The notes under the pieces are model-generated. The model was not told the DNA's origin and made no database searches. It was given only the letters and a program-made list of their open reading frames with translations. The position numbers and the translations under genes are program-made. A stretch of 39,084 nucleotides of DNA, taken from IMG/VR virus record IMGVR_UViG_3300042332_001525, positions 1-39,084 of that record. One strand, written 5' to 3'. The stretch is from a virus. The stretch's first letter is position 1; each line of letters opens with the position of its first letter. Positions 5,566-36,563 of the stretch are shown one piece after another.

Positions 5566-6855
5566 ATGGCAGAGAAAAAAACAATCCTTGAAGAAGCACT
5601 TTTGGATATCCAAAATATTCAGAATGCTCTCAATGCCAACACGAAAGAAATACTTCGTAGCGTAGCTAAAGAAGAAATTGACGGTGTTGTAAAAGAATCC
5701 ATGAAGGGTTATGTAGAGGAAGAAGTTGAAGAAGCTCTTGATGAAGTATCTAACAAAGAACATGAAAAATCTGAAACTCCATCGGAGGAAAAGAAAGAAC
5801 ATGGTAAAGGTGGTACTGAGAAAAAAGAGAAATCTGAAATGAAATCTAAAACTAAAAAAATGACTGAGGGTGAAATGTCAACAGAAGGTATGGAAGAAGA
5901 AGGTATGTACGAAGAAGACATAACTGATGAAACATACGAAGAAGGAATGGATGCAATGGCATCAGAAGAAATAGACTTGACCCAAGCGTCTGATGATGAC
6001 GTAATCGCAATCTACAAGAAATTGAGTGGCGAAGATGAAATCGAAATCGTAGGTGACGAAATTCACTTAACTGTCTCTGAACCAGGCGAATATATCGTTA
6101 AAACTTCTGACCTTAATGCTGCATCTGTTGAACCAGAAATTGGTGATGAAGATGAAGTTGATTATGAAATCGAAATGGGTGATGAAGATGAAGAATCTGA
6201 ATTTACTTTAGTAGATGATGAAGAAGAAGAAGAAGAAGAAGAAGAAGAAGAAGAAAGCGAGGAAGCTGAAGAAGAAGAAGAAGAAGAAGAAGAAACTATT
6301 GACGAGAAAATTAGTGTTGGTATCGGTATGAGCGTAGGTTCACACCGTGGCCAAGGTCCTAAATCAATAGGTGCTCCAGAAAATCCAAAATCTGAATCAA
6401 TCAATGAAGCTGCTGCCGCTAAAAAACTTGTTTCTGAAACTGCTAAAAAATATAATTCTCTTTTAACTGAGGCTAAAAAACTTAAGGTTGAGAACGATGA
6501 GTTCAGAACAGCCCTTAAAGAATTTAGAGGTAAGTTAGTTGAGACTGTAGTTTTCAATAGCAACTTGACTTACGTAACAAGATTGTTTATGGAACACGCT
6601 ACAACTAAGGCAGAAAAACAAACTATTATCAAGAGATTTGATGAAGAAGTTTCAAACCTTAAAGAATCTAAAAAGTTATATAGAACTATTGCCAACGAAT
6701 TGGTTTCTAGGAAACCAATCGCTGAATCAATCGAAAACAAAATAATCAAAGAGGCTACTACCAGTTCTTCAAAGCAATTAAATGAAAGTACTGCGTATGT
6801 TGACCCTTCAACTAAAAGAATCCTTGATTTGATTCAAAGAGTTGAAAAAAAATAA
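5566..6855 (+). CDS. Prohead core scaffolding protein (T4 gp22-like), very acidic
   Basis: This is the internal scaffold on which the capsid shell assembles, later degraded by the prohead protease. The call rests on position (protease before, capsid after), extreme acidity and a helical C-terminal third. Residues ~280-400 (AAAKKLVSETAKKYNSLL, then FRGKLVETVVFNSNLTYVTRLFME, about 320-345) resemble the gp22 helical region. Residues ~219-243 are nearly pure Glu, encoded by GAA repeats. Several L/IxE sites (for example LLTE and IIKE) could be protease cuts. At 429 residues it is longer than T4 gp22 (about 270), mainly because of the acidic middle, which may also replace the small acidic gp67/gp68. 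Confidence 0.8.
   Translation: MAEKKTILEEALLDIQNIQNALNANTKEILRSVAKEEIDGVVKESMKGYVEEEVEEALDEVSNKEHEKSETPSEEKKEHGKGGTEKKEKSEMKSKTKKMTEGEMSTEGMEEEGMYEEDITDETYEEGMDAMASEEIDLTQASDDDVIAIYKKLSGEDEIEIVGDEIHLTVSEPGEYIVKTSDLNAASVEPEIGDEDEVDYEIEMGDEDEESEFTLVDDEEEEEEEEEEEESEEAEEEEEEEEETIDEKISVGIGMSVGSHRGQGPKSIGAPENPKSESINEAAAAKKLVSETAKKYNSLLTEAKKLKVENDEFRTALKEFRGKLVETVVFNSNLTYVTRLFMEHATTKAEKQTIIKRFDEEVSNLKESKKLYRTIANELVSRKPIAESIENKIIKEATTSSSKQLNESTAYVDPSTKRILDLIQRVEKK
6220..6294 (+). repeat. GAA trinucleotide repeat inside scaffold gene
   Basis: Twelve GAA codons in a row (6220-6255) and nine more (6268-6294) are separated by four codons (AGC GAG GAA GCT). They encode a poly-Glu tract. Such repeats are prone to slippage, so length may vary between virions. 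Confidence 0.9.
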
Positions 6856-18104: not shown

Positions 18105-18932
18105 TTAAAAAAAATTATTTAATAATTTTTTAAACCAAGTTTGTTTTGTTTCTTTAATTTTACTAGTTTTTACCTCATAATTTTTTTGTTGAGGTTTTGT
18201 TGTATGGTATTGTTCAAATATTGGTTCTATTTGTTTTATTAGTGGATGTCTAACTACATCATCAAGACTAAATTCTACTACATCTACTCTATCGATGTTT
18301 TTAAAATATTTTGTTAAAAACATCAATGCGCTATCATATCTATTTTTTTGGTCTATTTGTTTTAAATCACCAAGTAAAATAATTTTACTATTTTCTCCTA
18401 ATCTAGTTAAAATTGTTCTGATATTATCAATACTGATGTTTTGTACTTCGTCAACAATAATAATAGCGTTATCAATGTTTACACCTCTCATGTAGGCAAT
18501 TGGTAAAATTTCTATTACTTTTTCATTTTTTAAAGTTTCAACCAATTCTCTACCGACAATTTTTTCAAAATTATTCAGAAAAGAATACATAAATGGTTCC
18601 ATTTTTTCTTCTAAAGTTCCCTTTAAAAATCCAATTTCTTCAGATTTAAGTGTTGTTACTGATTTAACTAGAACAATTTTTTCTATAGTTTTAGTATGTT
18701 TAAGTTCAATTAAAGATTGAGCACAAGTTATGTACGTTTTCCCGCATCCCGCAGGTCCAGTACATATAGTAACATCGTTTGTTTTGATTGAATTAGTAAG
18801 CTTTTTTTGGGTTTCGTTTTTGTGTTTTATGTCAATTTTTATTTTTGACAAGAGGGAAGAATTGAAACCAGTGAATATATCCTTTAAAACTTCAACCTCA
18901 TTTGTTTTTTTAGCTACGGTTTTTCTTGCCAT
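18105..18932 (-). CDS. phoH: PhoH-like P-loop ATPase
   Basis: The protein has 275 residues. Walker A is GPAGCGKT (59-66), Walker B is AIIIVDEVQNIS (about 154-165), and an ILLGDLKQID segment (sensor region) is also visible, as in PhoH/RNA-helicase-like ATPases. PhoH genes are very common in tailed phages of marine and gut bacteria, with proposed roles in RNA or phosphate metabolism that remain unproven. The short C-terminal tail is basic and Thr/Lys-rich. The gene sits directly after WecB and is preceded by a perfect copy of the 16-base promoter candidate, so it starts a new transcription unit. Confidence 0.9.
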   Translation of the reverse strand: MARKTVAKKTNEVEVLKDIFTGFNSSLLSKIKIDIKHKNETQKKLTNSIKTNDVTICTGPAGCGKTYITCAQSLIELKHTKTIEKIVLVKSVTTLKSEEIGFLKGTLEEKMEPFMYSFLNNFEKIVGRELVETLKNEKVIEILPIAYMRGVNIDNAIIIVDEVQNISIDNIRTILTRLGENSKIILLGDLKQIDQKNRYDSALMFLTKYFKNIDRVDVVEFSLDDVVRHPLIKQIEPIFEQYHTTKPQQKNYEVKTSKIKETKQTWFKKLLNNFF

Positions 18933-18955: not shown

Positions 18956-19957
18956 TTAGTCTGTCAAGATGTTTAAAATTTCACAAATTTTTACCGCTGA
19001 CTTACCATCCCCGTAAGGTGATTCAACATCAACTACGTGGTTTTCAACATGATTTTTGAAGATTTCTTTTAAATGTTTTGGCTCTTCAACCAAAAAACTA
19101 GTTATCCCTACTGATTCTGGTCTTTCAGTTACTTTTCGACAAACAAGGCATTTTTTATTAAAGAAAGAGCATTCTTCTTGTATACCACCACTATCTGTAA
19201 TCACCATTCTAGTTTTTACTAAAAGCTCTAATAAATCGTTATGACCTAACGGGTTTATTACCGTTACGTTTGTCAATAAATTTTTATGTTTTTGAACATT
19301 TGGGTTAGGATGTATTGGTAATATGAATTCCAATTCTGGGTGACTTTTAGCCAATTCATTTATCTCAGTAAACCATTCATCAATTCTATCATGATTTTCA
19401 CGTCTATGCATTGTTACCAATATTTTGTTGGTGTATTCACATTTTGTTTTGTAATCTACTAAATTATCCAAAACAGTATTTCCAACAACAAAAACATTTT
19501 GGTTGATGTTCTCATTAAATAAATTTTCAGCATTTTGTTTTGTTGGACATAAATGAATGGAAGCGATTGTGGAGACTATTCGTCTATTGTTTTCTTCTGG
19601 AAAGGGATTTTCTGTGTCATAAGTTCTTAAACCAGCCTCTAAATGTATTACTTTGATTTTTCTATGCAAAGCTGATAAAGCCAAACCAACAACCGATGTT
19701 GTATCACCTTGAACTAGTACATAAGTTATACCGTCAAAAATTTCATCTGGTAAATTCATCAAATTACCAATAACCGAATCCAACCTATTAGAACTTAAAT
19801 CTGTCATTTCTAATTTATAGTCGTAGTCACCGTTGGCTATATCTTTATGCTGCCCAGTGAATAATACTTTGTATGGTATGCCATGTTTTTTAAATTCAGA
19901 AATTATTGGTTTTATTTTTATATATTCTGGACGTGTTCCGTATGTTAGTAAAATCAT
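18956..19957 (-). CDS. wecB: UDP-N-acetylglucosamine 2-epimerase
   Basis: The enzyme converts UDP-GlcNAc to UDP-ManNAc, a precursor of ManNAc-containing surface polysaccharides and of sialic-acid-like sugars. All expected blocks of the non-hydrolysing family are present: GTRPEYIKIKPII (7-19), LVQGDTTSVVGLA, VIHLEAGLRTYDTENPFPEENNR, MHRREN, ITDSGGIQEEC and TERPE near residues 285-290. At 333 residues it is shorter than bacterial WecB (about 375), mainly at the C-terminus. Its start is one base after the stop of the upstream GDPD-like gene. It is the last gene of the main glycan run. No matching UDP-ManNAc dehydrogenase is in the window, so product fate depends on host enzymes. Confidence 0.92.
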   Translation of the reverse strand: MILLTYGTRPEYIKIKPIISEFKKHGIPYKVLFTGQHKDIANGDYDYKLEMTDLSSNRLDSVIGNLMNLPDEIFDGITYVLVQGDTTSVVGLALSALHRKIKVIHLEAGLRTYDTENPFPEENNRRIVSTIASIHLCPTKQNAENLFNENINQNVFVVGNTVLDNLVDYKTKCEYTNKILVTMHRRENHDRIDEWFTEINELAKSHPELEFILPIHPNPNVQKHKNLLTNVTVINPLGHNDLLELLVKTRMVITDSGGIQEECSFFNKKCLVCRKVTERPESVGITSFLVEEPKHLKEIFKNHVENHVVDVESPYGDGKSAVKICEILNILTD

Positions 19958-19958
19958 A

Positions 19959-20402
19959 TTATTTGTATTTTTCTATATAATCGCTACATATACCTATGCA
20001 GCTTGTTGTATCATCGTTATTAAGTTCTGGCATAACAGCAATACTATTTTTTATTGGTTGTTTATTAGGAAAAGCCCATATGTAATTAAGACTTGTTAAG
20101 GTAACGGTATCATTCTCATGCCAAAAATAATTAAAAGGAAACATTTTAAAATTAGCATTGAAATAGGTCATGGCTTCTATATTTTTACAGTGAATCCATA
20201 ATTTTGAATTCCTATCTCGAAGCCATCTGAAATCAATACCATAATCTGGTTTATCATGACCTAACCAAAAGATATTGTCTTTATACCAAATATCAACTTC
20301 AACATCATAACCTTTGGATATTGCTAAGTCAATGTAAGTTGGTTCATTTTCCCAACTTTCCATTCTTCCGTTTATGTTACCTCTATGTGCTATTAATTTC
20401 AT
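19959..20402 (-). CDS. Glycerophosphodiester phosphodiesterase-like protein, short
   Basis: The protein has 147 residues. The N-terminus LIAHRGNINGR (HRG motif), then AISKGYDVEVDIWYKDNIFWLGHD (about 28-51, with E-x-D and H), are GDPD/PI-PLC-like TIM-barrel signatures: the catalytic His pair and metal ligands. Usual GDPDs have about 240-350 residues, so the barrel here is incomplete and ends after about four strands. It may be a minimal enzyme, a lectin-like relic or a binding protein. It overlaps the FkbM gene upstream by four bases (ATGA) and lies one base from WecB, so it is a regular member of the operon. Substrate is unknown. A teichoic-acid-like or phospholipid phosphodiester is possible. 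Confidence 0.7.
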   Translation of the reverse strand: MKLIAHRGNINGRMESWENEPTYIDLAISKGYDVEVDIWYKDNIFWLGHDKPDYGIDFRWLRDRNSKLWIHCKNIEAMTYFNANFKMFPFNYFWHENDTVTLTSLNYIWAFPNKQPIKNSIAVMPELNNDDTTSCIGICSDYIEKYK

Positions 20403-21037
20403 ATGTTTTTATTTGTTGCAATAATATCGCCTTCGTTGAAAGGGTGGTATGCTTCGTTTATAAACACTAATTCAAAACCTAATGATTCTAAAAACTCTAC
20501 TAAATCTGTTTTTAATAAATGACCTTTATAATATGGTAATTCTGAAGCTTCACAATGAATGAATTTAACTTTTTTAAGTTTATCACCCATACTTTTTAAA
20601 GCTGCTAATTCAACACCTTGAGTATCTAACCACATAATATCAACAACGTCAATATTATTTTGGTCTAACCACTCATCTAACCTTTTAGATTCAACACTTA
20701 TTTTTGTGAAATTTTGTGTTGATGCAAATGGTACACTTATTGGTTCTAAAAGAGATGAAGCTCCAACATTACCATGTGTAACGTAAAAGTCTAAAGTTCC
20801 ATTTTTATCACTTATTGCTAATTGTTCAACACTAATGTTTTCATGGTTAACACTTTTACCTAAACAAATGTTAAATTGTTCTGGATTTGGTTCAAAAGCG
20901 TAAATTTTTGAATTTTGATATACACTAGAAAACTCTATACTTTGGTTTAAATCTCTAGACCCAATATCTAAAATTACTCTTACTTCAAAACTTGGGTCTG
21001 TGTTTCTTATGTGTGTTATAAATTTATCTATTAACAT
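20399..21037 (-). CDS. FkbM-family methyltransferase
   Basis: The protein has 212 residues. The SAM site is VRVILDIGSRDLNQSIEF (motif I, D-I-G-S-R), with an E-P-N-P motif after YAFEPNPEQFNI (acidic loop), and the family signature VDIMWLDTQGVELAALKSMGDKL (about 133-155). FkbM-type enzymes put O-methyl groups on sugars or polyketides. A role in capping or modifying the glycan made by this cluster is likely. It lies directly downstream of the RuBisCO-like gene (five-base gap) and overlaps the GDPD-like gene by four bases. It has no signal or membrane segment. Confidence 0.85.
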   Translation of the reverse strand: MLIDKFITHIRNTDPSFEVRVILDIGSRDLNQSIEFSSVYQNSKIYAFEPNPEQFNICLGKSVNHENISVEQLAISDKNGTLDFYVTHGNVGASSLLEPISVPFASTQNFTKISVESKRLDEWLDQNNIDVVDIMWLDTQGVELAALKSMGDKLKKVKFIHCEASELPYYKGHLLKTDLVEFLESLGFELVFINEAYHPFNEGDIIATNKNI

Positions 21038-21042
21038 ATTAA

Positions 21043-22221
21043 TTATTTTTTACCCCATTTTTCAATAGCCTTGTTATATTCTGCTTCATATTTTTTATCA
21101 ATACTTTGTCTCATAGCTTTTGCACCAGCTAAAGTACCATCTGGATGACCATGTAATGCACCACCAACATTTGCCATAAAATCATTACCAACTTTATCAA
21201 TAACCCAATCAGTTAGACCTGGATGAAAACCACAACTTAACGCTGGCATTACATTATTTTCTGTTAGTATTTTTACAGCATTAATTGTTTCATTTTCATC
21301 CCATTTATAATATCCACCTATCATACCAGCATGGATAAAATCAACACCCATTAAACTAGCTAATTTACAAATAACTTTCCAATCAATATGAAAATCATGA
21401 TTTTTATTTGTTAATATTTTATCACCAGATTTCTGAAAATGGATAAAAATAGGTAAATCTAGTTCTCTTATTGATTTGTAAACACCTAGACCACACCAAA
21501 AATTAACATGAACTGAGTTACCACCCAATGCATATACTTGTTTAACTCTATCTAAAATGTATGCTGGGTCTGAATGAATCGATACTGAATATATTACATT
21601 TTTATCTTTTAAATAATTCATAATTAATGGTACCCTAACTTCAATTGGACATATAGCTGGGTTACTCATAATCTCATCTTCTTTAATAAAATTAACACCA
21701 CCTTCAACTAATTCTTTAACCATTTCTAAAAGTATTTCTGGTGTTATACCTATTTTAGGTTTAACAATCGCACCAAAAATAGGTTTTTCATATGTTTTAG
21801 TATATTCTCTAATTCCATTAACACCATATTTAGGACCTTTAAAATAAGTAGTTTTAATATGTTCTGGAAATGTTATATCTAATATTTGACACTTTAAAAT
21901 GTTTTCAATATCCAATTGACCACCCATGATGTTAACCAATAAATGAGATACACCATCAGTCGCATAATCAATATTAGCATTTGGGAAAGCTATCTTAACT
22001 ATACCTTCACTTTTATCAGTTAATTCATCTTCATCAGCTAAAACCATGCATGAATGTTTTTCAAATAACTCATCAGTCTCCCATGAGTTTCTAACATTTG
22101 GGTTACCAACACTTTGACCTATAGCTAAATTCCATGCTGCATCTCTTAATGTTGTTGTTGATTTTAAAAAATATTCAACAATAACATAATCTTCTTTTTT
22201 AATATTTTTTTTAAAAATCAT
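21043..22221 (-). CDS. RuBisCO-like protein (RLP, form IV type)
   Basis: The protein has 392 residues, a nearly complete RuBisCO large-subunit family length with both the N-terminal domain and TIM barrel. Recognisable blocks: FKGPKYGVNGIRE (128-139), KPKIG (154-158, Lys at both spinach K175/K177 positions), GGVNFIKEDEIMSNP (174-188, with K180, D182 and E183 matching carbamylated K201, D203 and E204), FIHAG (H297 = H327), ALSCGFHPG (S329 = S379) and VGGALHGHPDG. N97 fits N123. Changed positions by motif alignment: E60 is G35, H294-R295 are Q263-K264, and K334 is Y304. Loss of these residues, which bind the bisphosphate, argues against CO2 fixation. RLPs instead catalyse enolisation or carboxyl chemistry on sugar-phosphate-like substrates. 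Neighbours are a cupin, a nucleotidyltransferase and methyltransferases. Confidence 0.88.
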   Translation of the reverse strand: MIFKKNIKKEDYVIVEYFLKSTTTLRDAAWNLAIGQSVGNPNVRNSWETDELFEKHSCMVLADEDELTDKSEGIVKIAFPNANIDYATDGVSHLLVNIMGGQLDIENILKCQILDITFPEHIKTTYFKGPKYGVNGIREYTKTYEKPIFGAIVKPKIGITPEILLEMVKELVEGGVNFIKEDEIMSNPAICPIEVRVPLIMNYLKDKNVIYSVSIHSDPAYILDRVKQVYALGGNSVHVNFWCGLGVYKSIRELDLPIFIHFQKSGDKILTNKNHDFHIDWKVICKLASLMGVDFIHAGMIGGYYKWDENETINAVKILTENNVMPALSCGFHPGLTDWVIDKVGNDFMANVGGALHGHPDGTLAGAKAMRQSIDKKYEAEYNKAIEKWGKK

Positions 22222-22232
22222 ATTTTATTTAT

Positions 22233-22556
22233 TTATTCAATTATTATTTTATCATCAGTGATTGATGGTGTTTTTACTATTACTAATTCACAATCTTCTA
22301 AAAAAGTTGGTTTTGCGATGTAAAAAGGTTGAATGGTGAAAATATCACCTTCATTAATTTCGATATCATTTATTAACATTTTACCCTTAACTAAAAGATT
22401 TATCTCATGGATTTTTTCGTGGTAATGTTTATCCCAGAATTCACCTTTAGTGTGTTTTTTATAACAAACTTCAAAGTCTTTGGTCTTAAAAGCTGTAGGT
22501 AGAAAATCACCTACAAACCAACCATCTTTCATTTCATTTAATTTATAAATTTGCAT
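22233..22556 (-). CDS. Small cupin-domain protein
   Basis: The protein has 107 residues. The cupin-1 motif is DKHYHEKIHEINLLVKG (about 42-58), with H44, H46 and E51 as likely metal ligands; the second motif is NEGDIFTIQPF (about 68-78), which lacks the usual His. One-domain cupins act as sugar epimerases/isomerases, lyases or binding proteins. The start overlaps the nucleotidyltransferase end by 14 bases, and the stop is 11 bases from the RLP start, so the three are translated together. A joint step on the same sugar is likely but not shown. Confidence 0.85.
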   Translation of the reverse strand: MQIYKLNEMKDGWFVGDFLPTAFKTKDFEVCYKKHTKGEFWDKHYHEKIHEINLLVKGKMLINDIEINEGDIFTIQPFYIAKPTFLEDCELVIVKTPSITDDKIIIE

Positions 22557-23271
22557 GTTTTAAGTATTTTTCTAAATCATCTGGTATACCAACTGACCAA
22601 TGTTTAGATTGGTCAATATGGTATACACCTATTTTTTTATTTTCACCTATCATTTCATTATATGTTGGCGCTATGTAAAATTCATTATTAACTCTTATAT
22701 TTTTATTAACCATTGATTCAACTGAAGTTACGAAATCAGAACCTTTTTTCCAAAAATGAATTCCATTAAGTGAATACTCACTTATTATCTGTTTCTCAGC
22801 AAATAATATAGCATCACCATTTTTATCCAATTTAACATAACTATTTTTCTCTGTTAAGACATTGTATGTTACAACAATACCATCTTTATTTGTTTCTTTT
22901 AATGTCTTATGAAAATCTTTTGAATCCCATTCCATTATTTGGTCACAATTTGTAACAATTAATGGGTTGTCATTATTAATTAATTCTTTCGCTAATAAAA
23001 CACTACTAGCTGGACCTTCAGTTAAATAATCTATTTCTATTATTTTTGGATTATTGACTATTACGTTTAACAATTTAATCAATTCATTACTTTGGCCTTC
23101 ATGGTTATTAACTATAAAAATAAATTCACCCTCAATTCCGATTGAATTTATCGCTAATTCAATCATTCTTTTTTCACCAATTTTAATCATTGGTTTAATC
23201 TCATCATAACCTTTTATTTTAAAACGATTACCAAGACCAGCCATTGGGATTACTATATTAATTTTCATCAT
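22543..23271 (-). CDS. Sugar-phosphate nucleotidyltransferase
   Basis: The protein has about 243 residues from the ATG at 23271 (a second ATG follows immediately). NIVIPMAGLGNRFKIKGYDEIKPMIKIG is the nucleotide-binding signature (G-x-G-x-R-F and the Lys of KP) of the family that makes NDP-sugars from NTP and sugar-1-phosphate. LIVTNCDQIM (about 110) has the Asp that binds metal, and GIHFWKKG and EFYIAP are later family blocks. It differs from GlmU and RmlA in lacking extra domains. In the operon it sits between the WavE-like gene and the cupin. It probably activates the sugar made by RLP/cupin neighbours. The base and sugar are not predictable. Confidence 0.88.
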   Translation of the reverse strand: MMKINIVIPMAGLGNRFKIKGYDEIKPMIKIGEKRMIELAINSIGIEGEFIFIVNNHEGQSNELIKLLNVIVNNPKIIEIDYLTEGPASSVLLAKELINNDNPLIVTNCDQIMEWDSKDFHKTLKETNKDGIVVTYNVLTEKNSYVKLDKNGDAILFAEKQIISEYSLNGIHFWKKGSDFVTSVESMVNKNIRVNNEFYIAPTYNEMIGENKKIGVYHIDQSKHWSVGIPDDLEKYLKHANL

Positions 23272-23869
23272 TACATAAATTATGTTCAAATAATTTGTGA
23301 TGTTTATAATCTTTTATATGAATATTTCTTTTTAACCAGACAATATCATTATCATCATTTAAACAACCCCCAAATAAATTTATATTTATTATATTTTTTC
23401 TGTTAATATTTGATGTTATAATAGCTTCGGCATGTGTTGAATTACTTTCATCAAAATCCCAAATACTGACCATAGTATCAATATCTGATTCCATAACATA
23501 GTCAACATAAGAACTAGGTCTATATGGTAACTGATTATGAAAAAATAAAATATTAACACCTTCGGTTAATAGTGTAATTAACTTTTTAGGGTTTGTTGGT
23601 ATCATATCACTTCTCCATTTGAAAACTCTTTGATACCCAAGTTCTTTTGCTTTTTCAATACCTTTATTTGTAGTTAACTGTTGTAATTTTATATTCCCAA
23701 CACCTTTTTCATGCGGTACGTCATTAAATATAACAATATCATTATCACTATATCTTGATTCACTACCTTTCCATGTTGACCAAATCAAATTATACCCATC
23801 CCAAGCTTTTTTTAATTCTTCCACATTATTAGATGGTCCTTGTATTATTATAACTAATTTATTATTCAT
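23258..23869 (-). CDS. WavE-like glycosyltransferase
   Basis: The protein has 204 residues from the ATG at 23869; an in-frame TTG two codons earlier is less likely. IIIQGPSNNVEELKKAWDGYNLIWSTWKGSE (about 7-37) and FKWRSDMIPTNPKKL (about 85-99, R-S-D-M as metal/donor region) are typical of WavE enzymes, first described in Vibrio LPS core synthesis. The downstream part, DFDESNSTHAEAIITSNINRKNIININLFGGC, resembles the acceptor end of that family. No membrane segment. It overlaps both neighbours slightly (epimerase upstream, nucleotidyltransferase downstream), so it is part of the same compact sub-operon. Confidence 0.78.
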   Translation of the reverse strand: MNNKLVIIIQGPSNNVEELKKAWDGYNLIWSTWKGSESRYSDNDIVIFNDVPHEKGVGNIKLQQLTTNKGIEKAKELGYQRVFKWRSDMIPTNPKKLITLLTEGVNILFFHNQLPYRPSSYVDYVMESDIDTMVSIWDFDESNSTHAEAIITSNINRKNIININLFGGCLNDDNDIVWLKRNIHIKDYKHHKLFEHNLCNDEN

Positions 23870-24905
23870 GTACAACTAATAAAGACTTTATCCATTCATA
23901 TGATTTTTCTAAACCTTTAATTAAAGGTTCTGAAACTGACCAACCAATTTTTTCGTTATATAGTTTGTTGTCTGAGTTTCTTCCCTTAACACCAGTTGGA
24001 CATTTATGACCATACTTTGTAATAAATTCATCACCGTAAATATTTTTTATTGTTATATTTTTATCAGATAGTTTTATAACCATTTCAGCTAATTGATTGA
24101 TGGTTACCATCTCCTCAGAACCTATATTAACTGGTCCTGTAAAATCACTATTCATAAGTCTTAAAACAGCTTCAACACATTCATCAATATACAAAAATGA
24201 ACGAGTTTGACTACCGTCACCCCATACTTCTAAAACACCACCATCTGGTGTTTCTGAAGCTTTTCTACACATAGCAGCTGGTGCTTTTTCTTTACCACCT
24301 TTCCAAGTACCTTGAGGGCCGAATATATTATGAAATCTAGCAATTCTAACTTGCAAACCATAATTTCTCATAAAAGATAAAAACAATCTTTCACTAAATA
24401 ATTTTTCCCAACCATATTCTGAATCTGGATTAGCTGGATATGCTGAAGATTCTTCGCAATTAGGGTTATTAGGGTCTAATTGGTTGTGTTCTGGGTACAT
24501 GCAAGCTGAAGATGAATAAAAAACTTTCTTAACGTTTTTTAAAACAGCTTCTTTGGCAACATTTAGGTTTATCATTGCTGAATTATGCATTACATCGGCA
24601 TCATGTTCACCAGTAAAAATATAACCAGCACCACCCATATCGGCAGCTAGTTGATACACTTCGTCAAAAGAATTTTCTTTATCTTTTAAAGAAGATTGAT
24701 TAGGAGCCATCATTATTTTAGACACCAACATAGGGTCTCTCAAATCACCAACAATAAACTCGTTTGAGATATCATCTAAATTAAAGTATTCGTGTTTTTT
24801 AAGGTCAACAATTCTAACCCAATGACCTTCTGATTTTAATCTTTTTGCTAAGTGACCACCAATAAAACCACCACCACCTAATATTAATATTTTTTTTAAT
24901 ACCAT
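23862..24905 (-). CDS. GDP-mannose 3,5-epimerase-like SDR enzyme
   Basis: The protein has 347 residues. ILGGGGFIGGHLA (8-20) is the NAD-binding Rossmann motif, and YGWEK (Y164, K168) is the catalytic SDR pair. AADMGGAGYI, SSACMYPE (C135), FHNIFGPQGTWKGGKEKAPAA (about 191-211, with K207) and EVWGDGSQTRSFLYIDECVEAVLRL closely follow plant GDP-mannose 3,5-epimerase, including the Cys and Lys acid/base pair of its 3,5-epimerisation. That enzyme makes GDP-L-galactose (and GDP-L-gulose). Related bacterial enzymes may use other NDP-sugars, so the substrate is inferred. The length fits the family (about 350-375). It overlaps FkbM-like and WavE genes. Confidence 0.85.
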   Translation of the reverse strand: MVLKKILILGGGGFIGGHLAKRLKSEGHWVRIVDLKKHEYFNLDDISNEFIVGDLRDPMLVSKIMMAPNQSSLKDKENSFDEVYQLAADMGGAGYIFTGEHDADVMHNSAMINLNVAKEAVLKNVKKVFYSSSACMYPEHNQLDPNNPNCEESSAYPANPDSEYGWEKLFSERLFLSFMRNYGLQVRIARFHNIFGPQGTWKGGKEKAPAAMCRKASETPDGGVLEVWGDGSQTRSFLYIDECVEAVLRLMNSDFTGPVNIGSEEMVTINQLAEMVIKLSDKNITIKNIYGDEFITKYGHKCPTGVKGRNSDNKLYNEKIGWSVSEPLIKGLEKSYEWIKSLLVVHE

Positions 24906-34381: not shown

Positions 34382-35568
34382 TATAATATTTCAATATATT
34401 CATTTAAAATCTTATTTACATCAAAACCTTTAACATCTTCAATATTATTGCTAATCTCAATAGTAGTCTTAACTAAAGGATTTTTTTCAGTATTAATAAA
34501 TAAACCATTCGGAAATTTGGTGTTTATCAAATTACAACCAACATATAATTTATTCATGTGGTCAATAATTTCATCATCAAATATATGTATTATATCAAAA
34601 TTATGTTCTTTTACTTTATACAATGTGTTTGGTTGAGAAACAACTTCACCTTGTTGAGTTTTAAGTTTCCATTTTCCATCACCTAAAGCAAATCCTGGTG
34701 GTTGTTGTATCGGTGCCAAAATTATACCTTTTGTTTTAGCAAGGTTTGCAATTTTACCATTAATGTTTGAACAAATTGTAACATTATGTTTTTCTTTTTT
34801 TAATTTAGACGCTATTTCTAATATAATATTACTTTTTGGTGAATTATCATCAAATGATAATGAAGTTATTAGTACGTTAAGTTTTTCACCCTTTCTCAAT
34901 TTCTTTTTAATTGAAATGGGTAATTTATCTTTGAACTTTTCTGAAAATTCTTGTCTATTAGTTTCCCATTGGTCATTGGTCATACCAATAGATTTATGGT
35001 TGATTCTAATTACAGTTGTAACACCAAGTTTAACACCTTCTAAATAATTTTCAAAACAAAAATTAACATCATAAAAATGAAAACCTTTTACTTCTTCATT
35101 AAATTCTTTTTTTATTTTTGTTTTGTCAACAGCAAAGAAAACACCATCAACAATAACTGTTTCTTCGATAACTTGATTTAAGTCTGGTGAATAAGATGAT
35201 AACCAAGTTTTTCCTTCATGTGTATGCGCAACACGACCATACATTTTCTTTGGGTTTTCCCACCATTTACCGCTTTGCGCTAAGTACTTAGTACCAGCCA
35301 CTCCTATGATACCAAATTCAGGGTTTCTTTCAAATAGCTTAAGTAGTTTTTCTCCCCATGATTTTGTTTCAATAACCAAATCATCGTGACAGTAAACAAT
35401 AATATTATTTTTTGCTTGTTTTAGTCCACGATTATAACATGATGTTAAAGATTCACCATTGTTTATAATCTCAATTATTTCAATGTTTTTTACTAACCCA
35501 GAACTTTTAATCAAATGTTCTCTATGTTCTAGATTACTTTGTCTTGTGCAATATATTACTGTTATCAT
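34381..35568 (-). CDS. Bifunctional glycosyltransferase: GT2-like domain plus GT-B-like half
   Basis: The protein has 395 residues. Residues 1-225 are GT-A: ITVIYCTRQSNLEHREHLIKSSG, then NIIVYCHDDLVIETKSWGEKLLKLF (about 54-78) with H-D-D as the metal motif, and GFHFYDVNFCFENYLEGVKLGV (about 162-183) as the catalytic D-x-x-F block. Residues 230-395 restart with LNVLITSLSFDDNSPKSNIILEIASKLKKEKHNVTICSN, the N-terminal Rossmann half of a GT-B enzyme, but the donor half is missing; the 33596-34381 gene immediately downstream may supply a partner domain. Fusion of two folds in one chain is unusual but seen in polysaccharide gene clusters. Confidence 0.75.
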   Translation of the reverse strand: MITVIYCTRQSNLEHREHLIKSSGLVKNIEIIEIINNGESLTSCYNRGLKQAKNNIIVYCHDDLVIETKSWGEKLLKLFERNPEFGIIGVAGTKYLAQSGKWWENPKKMYGRVAHTHEGKTWLSSYSPDLNQVIEETVIVDGVFFAVDKTKIKKEFNEEVKGFHFYDVNFCFENYLEGVKLGVTTVIRINHKSIGMTNDQWETNRQEFSEKFKDKLPISIKKKLRKGEKLNVLITSLSFDDNSPKSNIILEIASKLKKEKHNVTICSNINGKIANLAKTKGIILAPIQQPPGFALGDGKWKLKTQQGEVVSQPNTLYKVKEHNFDIIHIFDDEIIDHMNKLYVGCNLINTKFPNGLFINTEKNPLVKTTIEISNNIEDVKGFDVNKILNEYIEIL

Positions 35569-36563
35569 TATTTTTTAAATCTGTTGTATGCGTTGTTTGT
35601 TATTTTTATCACATTAGCTTGACCGATAAAATCTTCTAATGTAATAGCATCTGAATAACTCATGGCAGAACGTAAATAGTCTTCAAAATTTTCTATCCAT
35701 TTAGCCAATGTATATTCAACTTGTCTAAATCTAATCACACCTTCTGAAGTTGTCAAGGTTTCTTTACCCCATTTTTTTTGAACTTCTTTGGTACTCATTC
35801 CTCTGAATTTTTTATACACAGGGATTTTATTATCGTAAGCCAATTTGGCAACTTCTTGATTAACTTTTATCTTACCCCATAGATAATTGTCACCACATGA
35901 TTCAATAGCTTTGTTAAATAGACTACCAACCATAACATAGTCAGCACCCAAAACCAATGCTTTGATAATATCACTGTAGTTTTGCATACCACCATCAGCT
36001 ACAATTTTAGCTGGATTATACAAATGTAATGATTCAAAATAACATTCTTGGATTAGCGATGCCATAGGATACCCTACACCAGTATGAACGGTTGTGCTAC
36101 AACCGCCACCGTTACCAACACCAACTCTAATAAAATCAGCACCAGCATTTGATAATTCAGTATAAGTTTTTGGATTAGCAACATTTCCAACCATTAGTGT
36201 CAAATTAGGATATTTTTGTTTTATTAGTTTTGTCGTTGTTAATAAATCAATCATATGACCATTTGCAATATCAATCAAATAATAACCATCATCATTTAAT
36301 TCATTAGACAAATATTTTGAAAACATTTCGTTTAAAGAATATGAAGTAAAACCTAATGAAGATTTTTCACCTCTTGGTAAGCATGTGTTTATCTTATTGT
36401 TATAAAATAATTCTTCATTTTCTGGACAAATAACAGTATCCATTGGAGCTGTAATTAGTGGCAAAAACCCATTATAATATGGGTTTATGTTTTTTCGACT
36501 ACTTATTGATGATACAGTAGCTGGTACTATTAGAATATCGTTAAAATCAAATTTTTCCATCAT
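35568..36563 (-). CDS. GMP reductase / IMP dehydrogenase-like enzyme
   Basis: The protein has 331 residues without CBS domains. MEKFDFNDILIVP (2-14) and LPLITAPMDTV (35-45) are family N-terminal blocks. RVGVGNGGGCSTTVHTGVGYP (from about residue 146) carries the catalytic Cys (C155), although the loop residues differ from G-S-I/V-C-T-T-R. ADGGMQNYSDIIKALVLGADYVMVG (about 189-213) is the phosphate-binding motif, and FRGMSTKE the mobile flap. TGVGYP and the C-terminal LRSAMSYSDAITLEDF segment resemble GMP reductase more than IMP dehydrogenase. The gene would alter the GMP/IMP balance for phage DNA or GDP-sugar supply. Start at 36563 or 36560. Confidence 0.82.
   Translation of the reverse strand: MMEKFDFNDILIVPATVSSISSRKNINPYYNGFLPLITAPMDTVICPENEELFYNNKINTCLPRGEKSSLGFTSYSLNEMFSKYLSNELNDDGYYLIDIANGHMIDLLTTTKLIKQKYPNLTLMVGNVANPKTYTELSNAGADFIRVGVGNGGGCSTTVHTGVGYPMASLIQECYFESLHLYNPAKIVADGGMQNYSDIIKALVLGADYVMVGSLFNKAIESCGDNYLWGKIKVNQEVAKLAYDNKIPVYKKFRGMSTKEVQKKWGKETLTTSEGVIRFRQVEYTLAKWIENFEDYLRSAMSYSDAITLEDFIGQANVIKITNNAYNRFKK

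Follow-up and report, generated by a model that had tools for sequence, protein, structure and literature searches.

A mostly viral family of RuBisCO-like proteins, predicted not to carboxylate, in a nucleotide-sugar gene cassette of a T4-type phage

The window, as we call the stretch of DNA analyzed here, spans 39,084 bp and is a virus record in IMG/VR. A portal protein, a head protease, and a major head protein are recognized in it through PHROGs; T4-type phages have the nearest relatives of this head protein, and its best matches include Microcystis and Flavobacterium phages. The window is a fragment of a T4-type phage that infects bacteria. Between the head protease and the major head protein lies a gene (5566-6855) with a very acidic, low-complexity stretch and long Glu runs; it is probably scaffold-like. 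A minus-strand phage run at 15083-35568 is rich in glycosyltransferase-like, FkbM-like, and sugar genes and contains the module that concerns us. These genes occupy about 20 kb of a T4-type phage, broken by phage genes such as PhoH (18105-18932), and phage genes flank the cluster at both ends. The phage gene at 35568-36563 is IMP dehydrogenase/GMP reductase-like, its best NCBIfam equivalog scoring 115 bits against a cut-off of 482.

Within this run, a minus-strand open reading frame (21043-22221) starts with ATG and continues, uninterrupted by stops, for 392 aa. Its product is a member of the superfamily of RuBisCO and RuBisCO-like proteins (RLPs): Pfam RuBisCO_large (PF00016) scores 117.9 bits (E 7.1e-34; gathering score 30.1), RuBisCO_large_N also exceeds its cut-off, and the matches listed in a PDB sequence search are all RuBisCO or RLPs, with MtnW of G. 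kaustophilus the best solved RLP relative (E 1e-35). The AlphaFold2 model (pLDDT 92.6, pTM 0.90) has its best fold matches in form III RuBisCO and MtnW (TM about 0.87). The first-pass annotation of this DNA had reported a full-length RLP in a phage genome. The intact reading frame, Pfam, PDB, and the model agree in confirming it, and the four RuBisCO motifs quoted there (KPKIG, GGVNFIKEDE, FIHAG, and GGALHGHPDG) are all found in the protein. An assembly chimera of phage and bacterial DNA, named there as a finding that would overturn the claim, was looked for and not found: PhoH, a late-sigma-like gene, and adjacent genes lie on the same side of the module in independent contigs from other samples (L001, L002, L012, L013, and L036). 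This synteny, together with the phage genes on both flanks, makes a chimera very unlikely.

None of the NCBIfam equivalogs for RuBisCO or RLPs reaches its cut-off; scores across the family range from 77 to 231 bits, against cut-offs of 409 to 700. For the window protein, the highest-scoring model is TIGR03326 (form III; 188 bits, cut-off 497), and PRK04208 (large subunit) gives 167 bits against 438, PRK13475 104 against 489, the MtnW models TIGR03332 and PRK09549 138.6 against 513.6 and 156.5 against 409, and NF042437 (OiaX) 138.4 against 700.

The neighbors of the RLP gene are nucleotide-sugar genes. Just 11 bp away lies a cupin of 107 aa (22233-22556, minus strand) with an invariant metal motif, H44-x-H46-x4-E51; a cupin is present at 55 of 81 RLP loci, normally directly upstream of the RLP. 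Overlapping the cupin by 14 bp is a stand-alone nucleotidyltransferase (22543-23268, minus strand) with a GxGxRF...KP motif, whose reading frame can be extended to a TTG at 23289, with homologs beginning at about 23268. This partner occurs at 78 of the 81 loci. Its nearest solved relative, 4evw, is labelled a nucleoside-diphosphate-sugar pyrophosphorylase (E 5e-34), and its matches to curated NCBIfam models are weak. The fourth member is a mini-GDPD-like protein of 147 aa (19959-20402, minus strand; 66/81 loci) in which HRG, E-x-D, and GHD motifs are invariant. Short motifs are the basis of the "GDPD-like" label, since Pfam gives no GDPD match, Foldseek returns nothing below E 0.001, and the GDPD match among PDB profiles is a weak one (E 1.8e-4). 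Other minus-strand genes join less regularly: an NAD-dependent nucleotide-sugar epimerase/dehydratase is a frequent partner (23862-24905; 32/81 loci), and an FkbM-type methyltransferase between the RLP and GDPD-like genes (20399-21037; 9/81) and a non-hydrolysing UDP-GlcNAc 2-epimerase, WecB, over its NCBIfam cut-off (18956-19957; 8/81), are optional.

The cassette is compact and conserved in orientation. Across the 81 viral loci, 197 of 198 nucleotidyltransferase, cupin, and GDPD-like genes within 4 kb of the RLP lie on its strand. The commonest order is nucleotidyltransferase-cupin-RLP-GDPD. The genes usually overlap: median gaps lie between -14 and -1 bp overall, and for adjacent genes in this order they are -14, -14, and -4 bp. 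Adjacent, co-oriented genes are also found in distant genomes: Azospirillum (L099) and Elusimicrobia (L098) carry the full module in the order GDPD-RLP-cupin-nucleotidyltransferase. There, the cupin and GDPD-like genes of both, and the nucleotidyltransferase of the GC-rich Azospirillum, were missed by gene calling and found by an all-frame search. The SAR11 order is GDPD, nucleotidyltransferase-like, RLP, nucleotidyltransferase, and the RLP and nucleotidyltransferase pair occurs in Nanoarchaeia as well. In Legionella, these 2 genes are the only adjacent pair, so the cupin and the GDPD-like protein are not strictly required. Retention of the module in distant genomes despite reordering is strong evidence for a single pathway. 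The second nucleotidyltransferase-like gene beside the SAR11 RLP (L093:7216-7980, L092:7232-7969, and L091:5874-6617) has a degraded GxGxR motif (VAGPNxxF) and is possibly a non-catalytic paralogue.

The active site separates the protein from carboxylating enzymes. We compared 40 family members, viral and cellular, in form I numbering, the N-terminal columns being set from a form II sequence. The positions K175, K177, K201, D203, E204, and S379 are invariant in all 40; G403 never varies and G404 almost never. All 40 also share 6 replacements (E60 to Gly, T65 to Asn, N123 to Gly, H294 to Gln, K334 to Tyr, and G380 to Cys) at positions that every form I, II, and III sequence compared retains. 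The retained set would support enediolate formation at a Mg2+ site in the established RuBisCO mechanism, in which K334 positions CO2. With K334 and H294 replaced, the RLP should not fix CO2, and we predict that the whole family is non-carboxylating. By this pattern, carboxylation residues swapped and the metal-binding lysine motif retained, the window protein would be classed as a form IV RLP. It resembles form IV RLPs in general in its fold, in its KPK and K-x-D-E metal motifs, and in the lost carboxylation residues. It differs from them in having a clade of its own, a signature (GQSxGNP/Q263/Y304/SCG), a nucleotide-sugar context, and a mostly viral distribution.

Relatives are plentiful in environmental viruses. 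A scan of IMG/VR viral contigs returned 167 with the RLP protein as query and at least 338 with an alignment as query; 80 relatives, full-length and 54-80% identical, were retained. The viral genes are under strong purifying selection, with a median dN/dS (omega) of 0.046 among close pairs, and the catalytic residues are invariant across 81 aligned viral RLPs. Reference collections look different: the RLP is absent from 50,697 INPHARED phage genomes, it has no PHROG family, and no full-length RuBisCO fold was found among the BFVD viral folds. Among the plasmid matches listed, RLPs are only of the OiaX or MtnW type, at about 30% identity to the window protein. A motif scan of IMG/VR for canonical RuBisCO (forms I and II) and OiaX gave 165 pattern matches, none of them confirmed with a form I query, a confirmation that divergent forms could escape.

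Cells carry the family too. A scan of genome contigs gave 24 cellular loci, 1 of which (Desulfosporosinus, L105) falls outside the family. They include SAR11 single cells, an alphaproteobacterial SAG, Azospirillum oleiclasticum, Legionella nautarum, L. maceachernii, and L. drozanskii, Elusimicrobia, Verrucomicrobiia, Pacearchaeota, Nanoarchaeia, Woesearchaeota, and others. A near-identical bacterial copy, the other finding held to be fatal to a viral RLP, did not appear: the closest cellular relatives are 57-60% identical to the window protein. Samples drawn evenly show the family to be rare among cellular genomes: 4 of 112 from the Legionella family carry it, as do 2 of 197 from the Pelagibacter family; across 398 genomes of the Legionella phylum there is a single match at 323 bits, the next scoring 136. 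DPANN matches at E 1e-41 to 1e-64 are a separate matter: all 12 examined are form III-type RuBisCO with complete active sites, outside the family.

In the careful tree, viral and cellular members fall together on one side of a 100/100 branch, and the quick tree agrees. Both set them apart from forms I, II, and III, MtnW, and OiaX-like RLPs. By sequence, then, they constitute a distinct, mostly viral family of form IV RLPs relative to the references in those trees, which cover forms I-III, MtnW, and OiaX-like RLPs. In both trees, a few sequences from SAR11 and MAGs fall inside the viral groups, which indicates that RLP genes have passed between viruses and cells. The first-pass annotation had proposed a tree and profile search that might reveal a phage-specific RLP. 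The family does lie outside the reference forms and its sequence set is largely viral, but it is not exclusively so: the same active site and gene neighbors recur in SAR11, Azospirillum, Legionella, Elusimicrobia, and DPANN archaea, and these, with the nested cellular sequences, leave phage specificity unsupported. One contig binned as cellular, from a Sphingobacteriales MAG (L100), shares its accessory families with the viral loci, and its divergent RLP forms a very long branch; this contig and a Crocinitomicaceae MAG contig (L082) may be phage DNA.

What does such a protein do? RuBisCO-family members usually serve cellular carbon or sulfur metabolism, as had been remarked of this gene, and those roles fit neither the active site nor the neighborhood. 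That a phage should use a true RuBisCO as an auxiliary gene to fix CO2 during infection has its precedent in published viral "rbcL" genes described as AMGs for carbon fixation, with activity claimed for one of them (PMC12615777, PMC8506154), and the family does retain its KPK, carbamylation, and metal residues. We nonetheless consider it extremely unlikely, because K334 and H294, present in all form I-III sequences compared, are Tyr and Gln family-wide, E60, T65, and N123 are lost as well, the 81 loci show no Calvin-cycle or AMP-pathway neighbor among their nucleotide-sugar partners, and scores fall below both the form III and the large-subunit cut-offs. Archaeal form III RuBisCO is the best fold match and the top NCBIfam model, yet the DPANN form III proteins keep all catalytic residues and sit elsewhere in the tree. 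A methionine-salvage RLP for sulfur recycling, whether an enolase like MtnW (2,3-diketo-5-methylthiopentyl-1-phosphate enolase) or an isomerase of the R. rubrum type, is very improbable. MtnW is non-carboxylating, is the best solved RLP relative in both sequence and fold, and probably shares the predicted enolisation chemistry; its site, however, has Lys at N123, Val at K177, and Ser at K334, its models stay far below their cut-offs, it is separate from the family in both trees, and no sulfur-salvage gene is recognized among the most frequent neighbors at the 81 loci.

More credible, but still unlikely, is a sugar-acid decarboxylase or transcarboxylase resembling OiaX (3-oxo-isoapionate-4-phosphate decarboxylase, of D-apiose catabolism) that makes a chain-shortened or branched sugar within a glycan pathway. 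The sugar context makes a decarboxylation step conceivable, OiaX-type RLPs share the fold and have phosphorylated branched sugar acids as substrates, and OiaX-like proteins make up most of the plasmid relatives listed. Against this, OiaX belongs to catabolic operons, retains K334 and H294, and carries Asp at E60 and Ala at K177; identity to OiaX and OiaX-like proteins is only about 30%, the NF042437 score is far from its cut-off, and no sugar-acid dehydrogenase or kinase is recognized beside the module. The RLP might instead have no catalytic work to do in viruses and be a host glycan gene that travels with its cassette, as its presence in cells and the nesting of cellular among viral sequences could suggest. 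An omega near 0.05, catalytic residues that do not vary in 81 viral sequences, and tight coupling to the nucleotidyltransferase in unrelated genomes leave little room for that idea.

We favor, with somewhat better than even confidence, a non-carboxylating form IV RLP in a four-gene nucleotide-sugar cassette, which would enolise or isomerise a sugar phosphate ahead of nucleotide activation for a glycan. Homology, separation of the family, residues, module conservation, selection, the glycosyltransferase-rich phage setting, and the usual lack of a HAD domain beside an RLP are observed; the enolisation or isomerisation, the order of steps, and the final glycan are what we infer. From knowledge of the RuBisCO family, a carbamylated K180 with D182 and E183 would bind Mg2+, and K154 would act as the base, taking the proton beside the carbonyl of a phosphorylated ketose held in the retained P1 site (S329-C330-G331 and G353-G354). 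The enediolate would be reprotonated rather than carboxylated, because Y304 and Q263 replace K334 and H294 of RuBisCO. The cupin possibly acts on the isomerised sugar phosphate, the nucleotidyltransferase would then activate it, and glycosyltransferases of the phage cluster would place the activated sugar in a glycan on the virion or the infected-cell surface.

Viruses that lack the RLP, cyanophages included, can carry the partner families as well. The nucleotidyltransferase of such modules usually bears a fused HAD phosphatase domain, either an N-terminal HAD_2 or a C-terminal acid-phosphatase-like one. These fusions (phrog_3980; glycan clusters of cyanophages and other phages) share a homologous nucleotidyltransferase, a GDPD-like gene, and sometimes a cupin with the RLP modules, which in contrast usually lack HAD. 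In an 80% non-redundant set of loci picked by top score, RLP-linked nucleotidyltransferases are unfused in 88 cases and fused in 6, and unlinked ones unfused in 6 and fused in 51. Shared descent inflates the Fisher result (p 1.5e-26): the tree shows about 9 changes of each trait, and an independent-pairs sign test gives p 0.5. With few independent events and a non-significant pairs test, it is suggestive that RLP and HAD fusion are largely alternatives in the cassette. The alternation parallels methionine salvage, in which a bifunctional enolase/phosphatase, MtnC, elsewhere takes the place of MtnW (an RLP) and MtnX (PMC6302742). We would give even odds to the broader view of a hitherto uncharacterised RLP function: a RuBisCO-fold enolase or isomerase for the precursor of an activated unusual sugar, spread mainly by viruses and able to trade places with a HAD-domain enzyme in the cassette.

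What emerges is a family of form IV RLPs that is distinct and mostly viral, with a fixed nucleotide-sugar gene context and a diagnostic active site. A literature search, beyond whose reach lay most subscription papers and preprints, returned no paper tying RLPs to nucleotidyltransferases and none joining RuBisCO-like proteins, phages, and auxiliary metabolic genes. Members may have been seen earlier and left without interpretation, since the 2007 GOS survey contained unplaced novel groups of RuBisCO homologs (PMC1821046). RuBisCO-family genes in viromes are currently read as carbon-fixation auxiliary genes: viral "rbcL" is listed in this way (PMC8506154, PMC12615777, PMC13390420), and one report groups a viral copy with "RbcL-like" proteins (PMC12607003). 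The published genes may include the family described here. Lost carboxylation residues beside sugar-activating neighbors suggest that viral "RuBisCO" of the window type probably serves an unusual surface-glycan sugar; if so, virome "rbcL" of this type is unrelated to carbon fixation. Since the aligned members of the at least 338 relatives lack the carboxylation residues and the scan for form I, form II, and OiaX motifs confirmed no relative, some viral carbon-fixation inferences merit re-checking. The family points to a new catalytic role for a much-studied fold, in a small cassette, common to phages, SAR11, Azospirillum, Legionella, and archaea, that is open to direct expression and assay.

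Within the family, 3 RLP residues co-vary: positions 264, 267, and 297 (R295, H298, and H327 of RuBisCO) read K-D-H in 39 of 81 sequences, S-A-Q in 33, and K-D-Q in 9. The resulting types (QKDHY, QSAQY, and QKDQY) show no association with the presence of a cupin (Fisher p 1.0). The trio may mark substrate variants, perhaps 2 substrate types.
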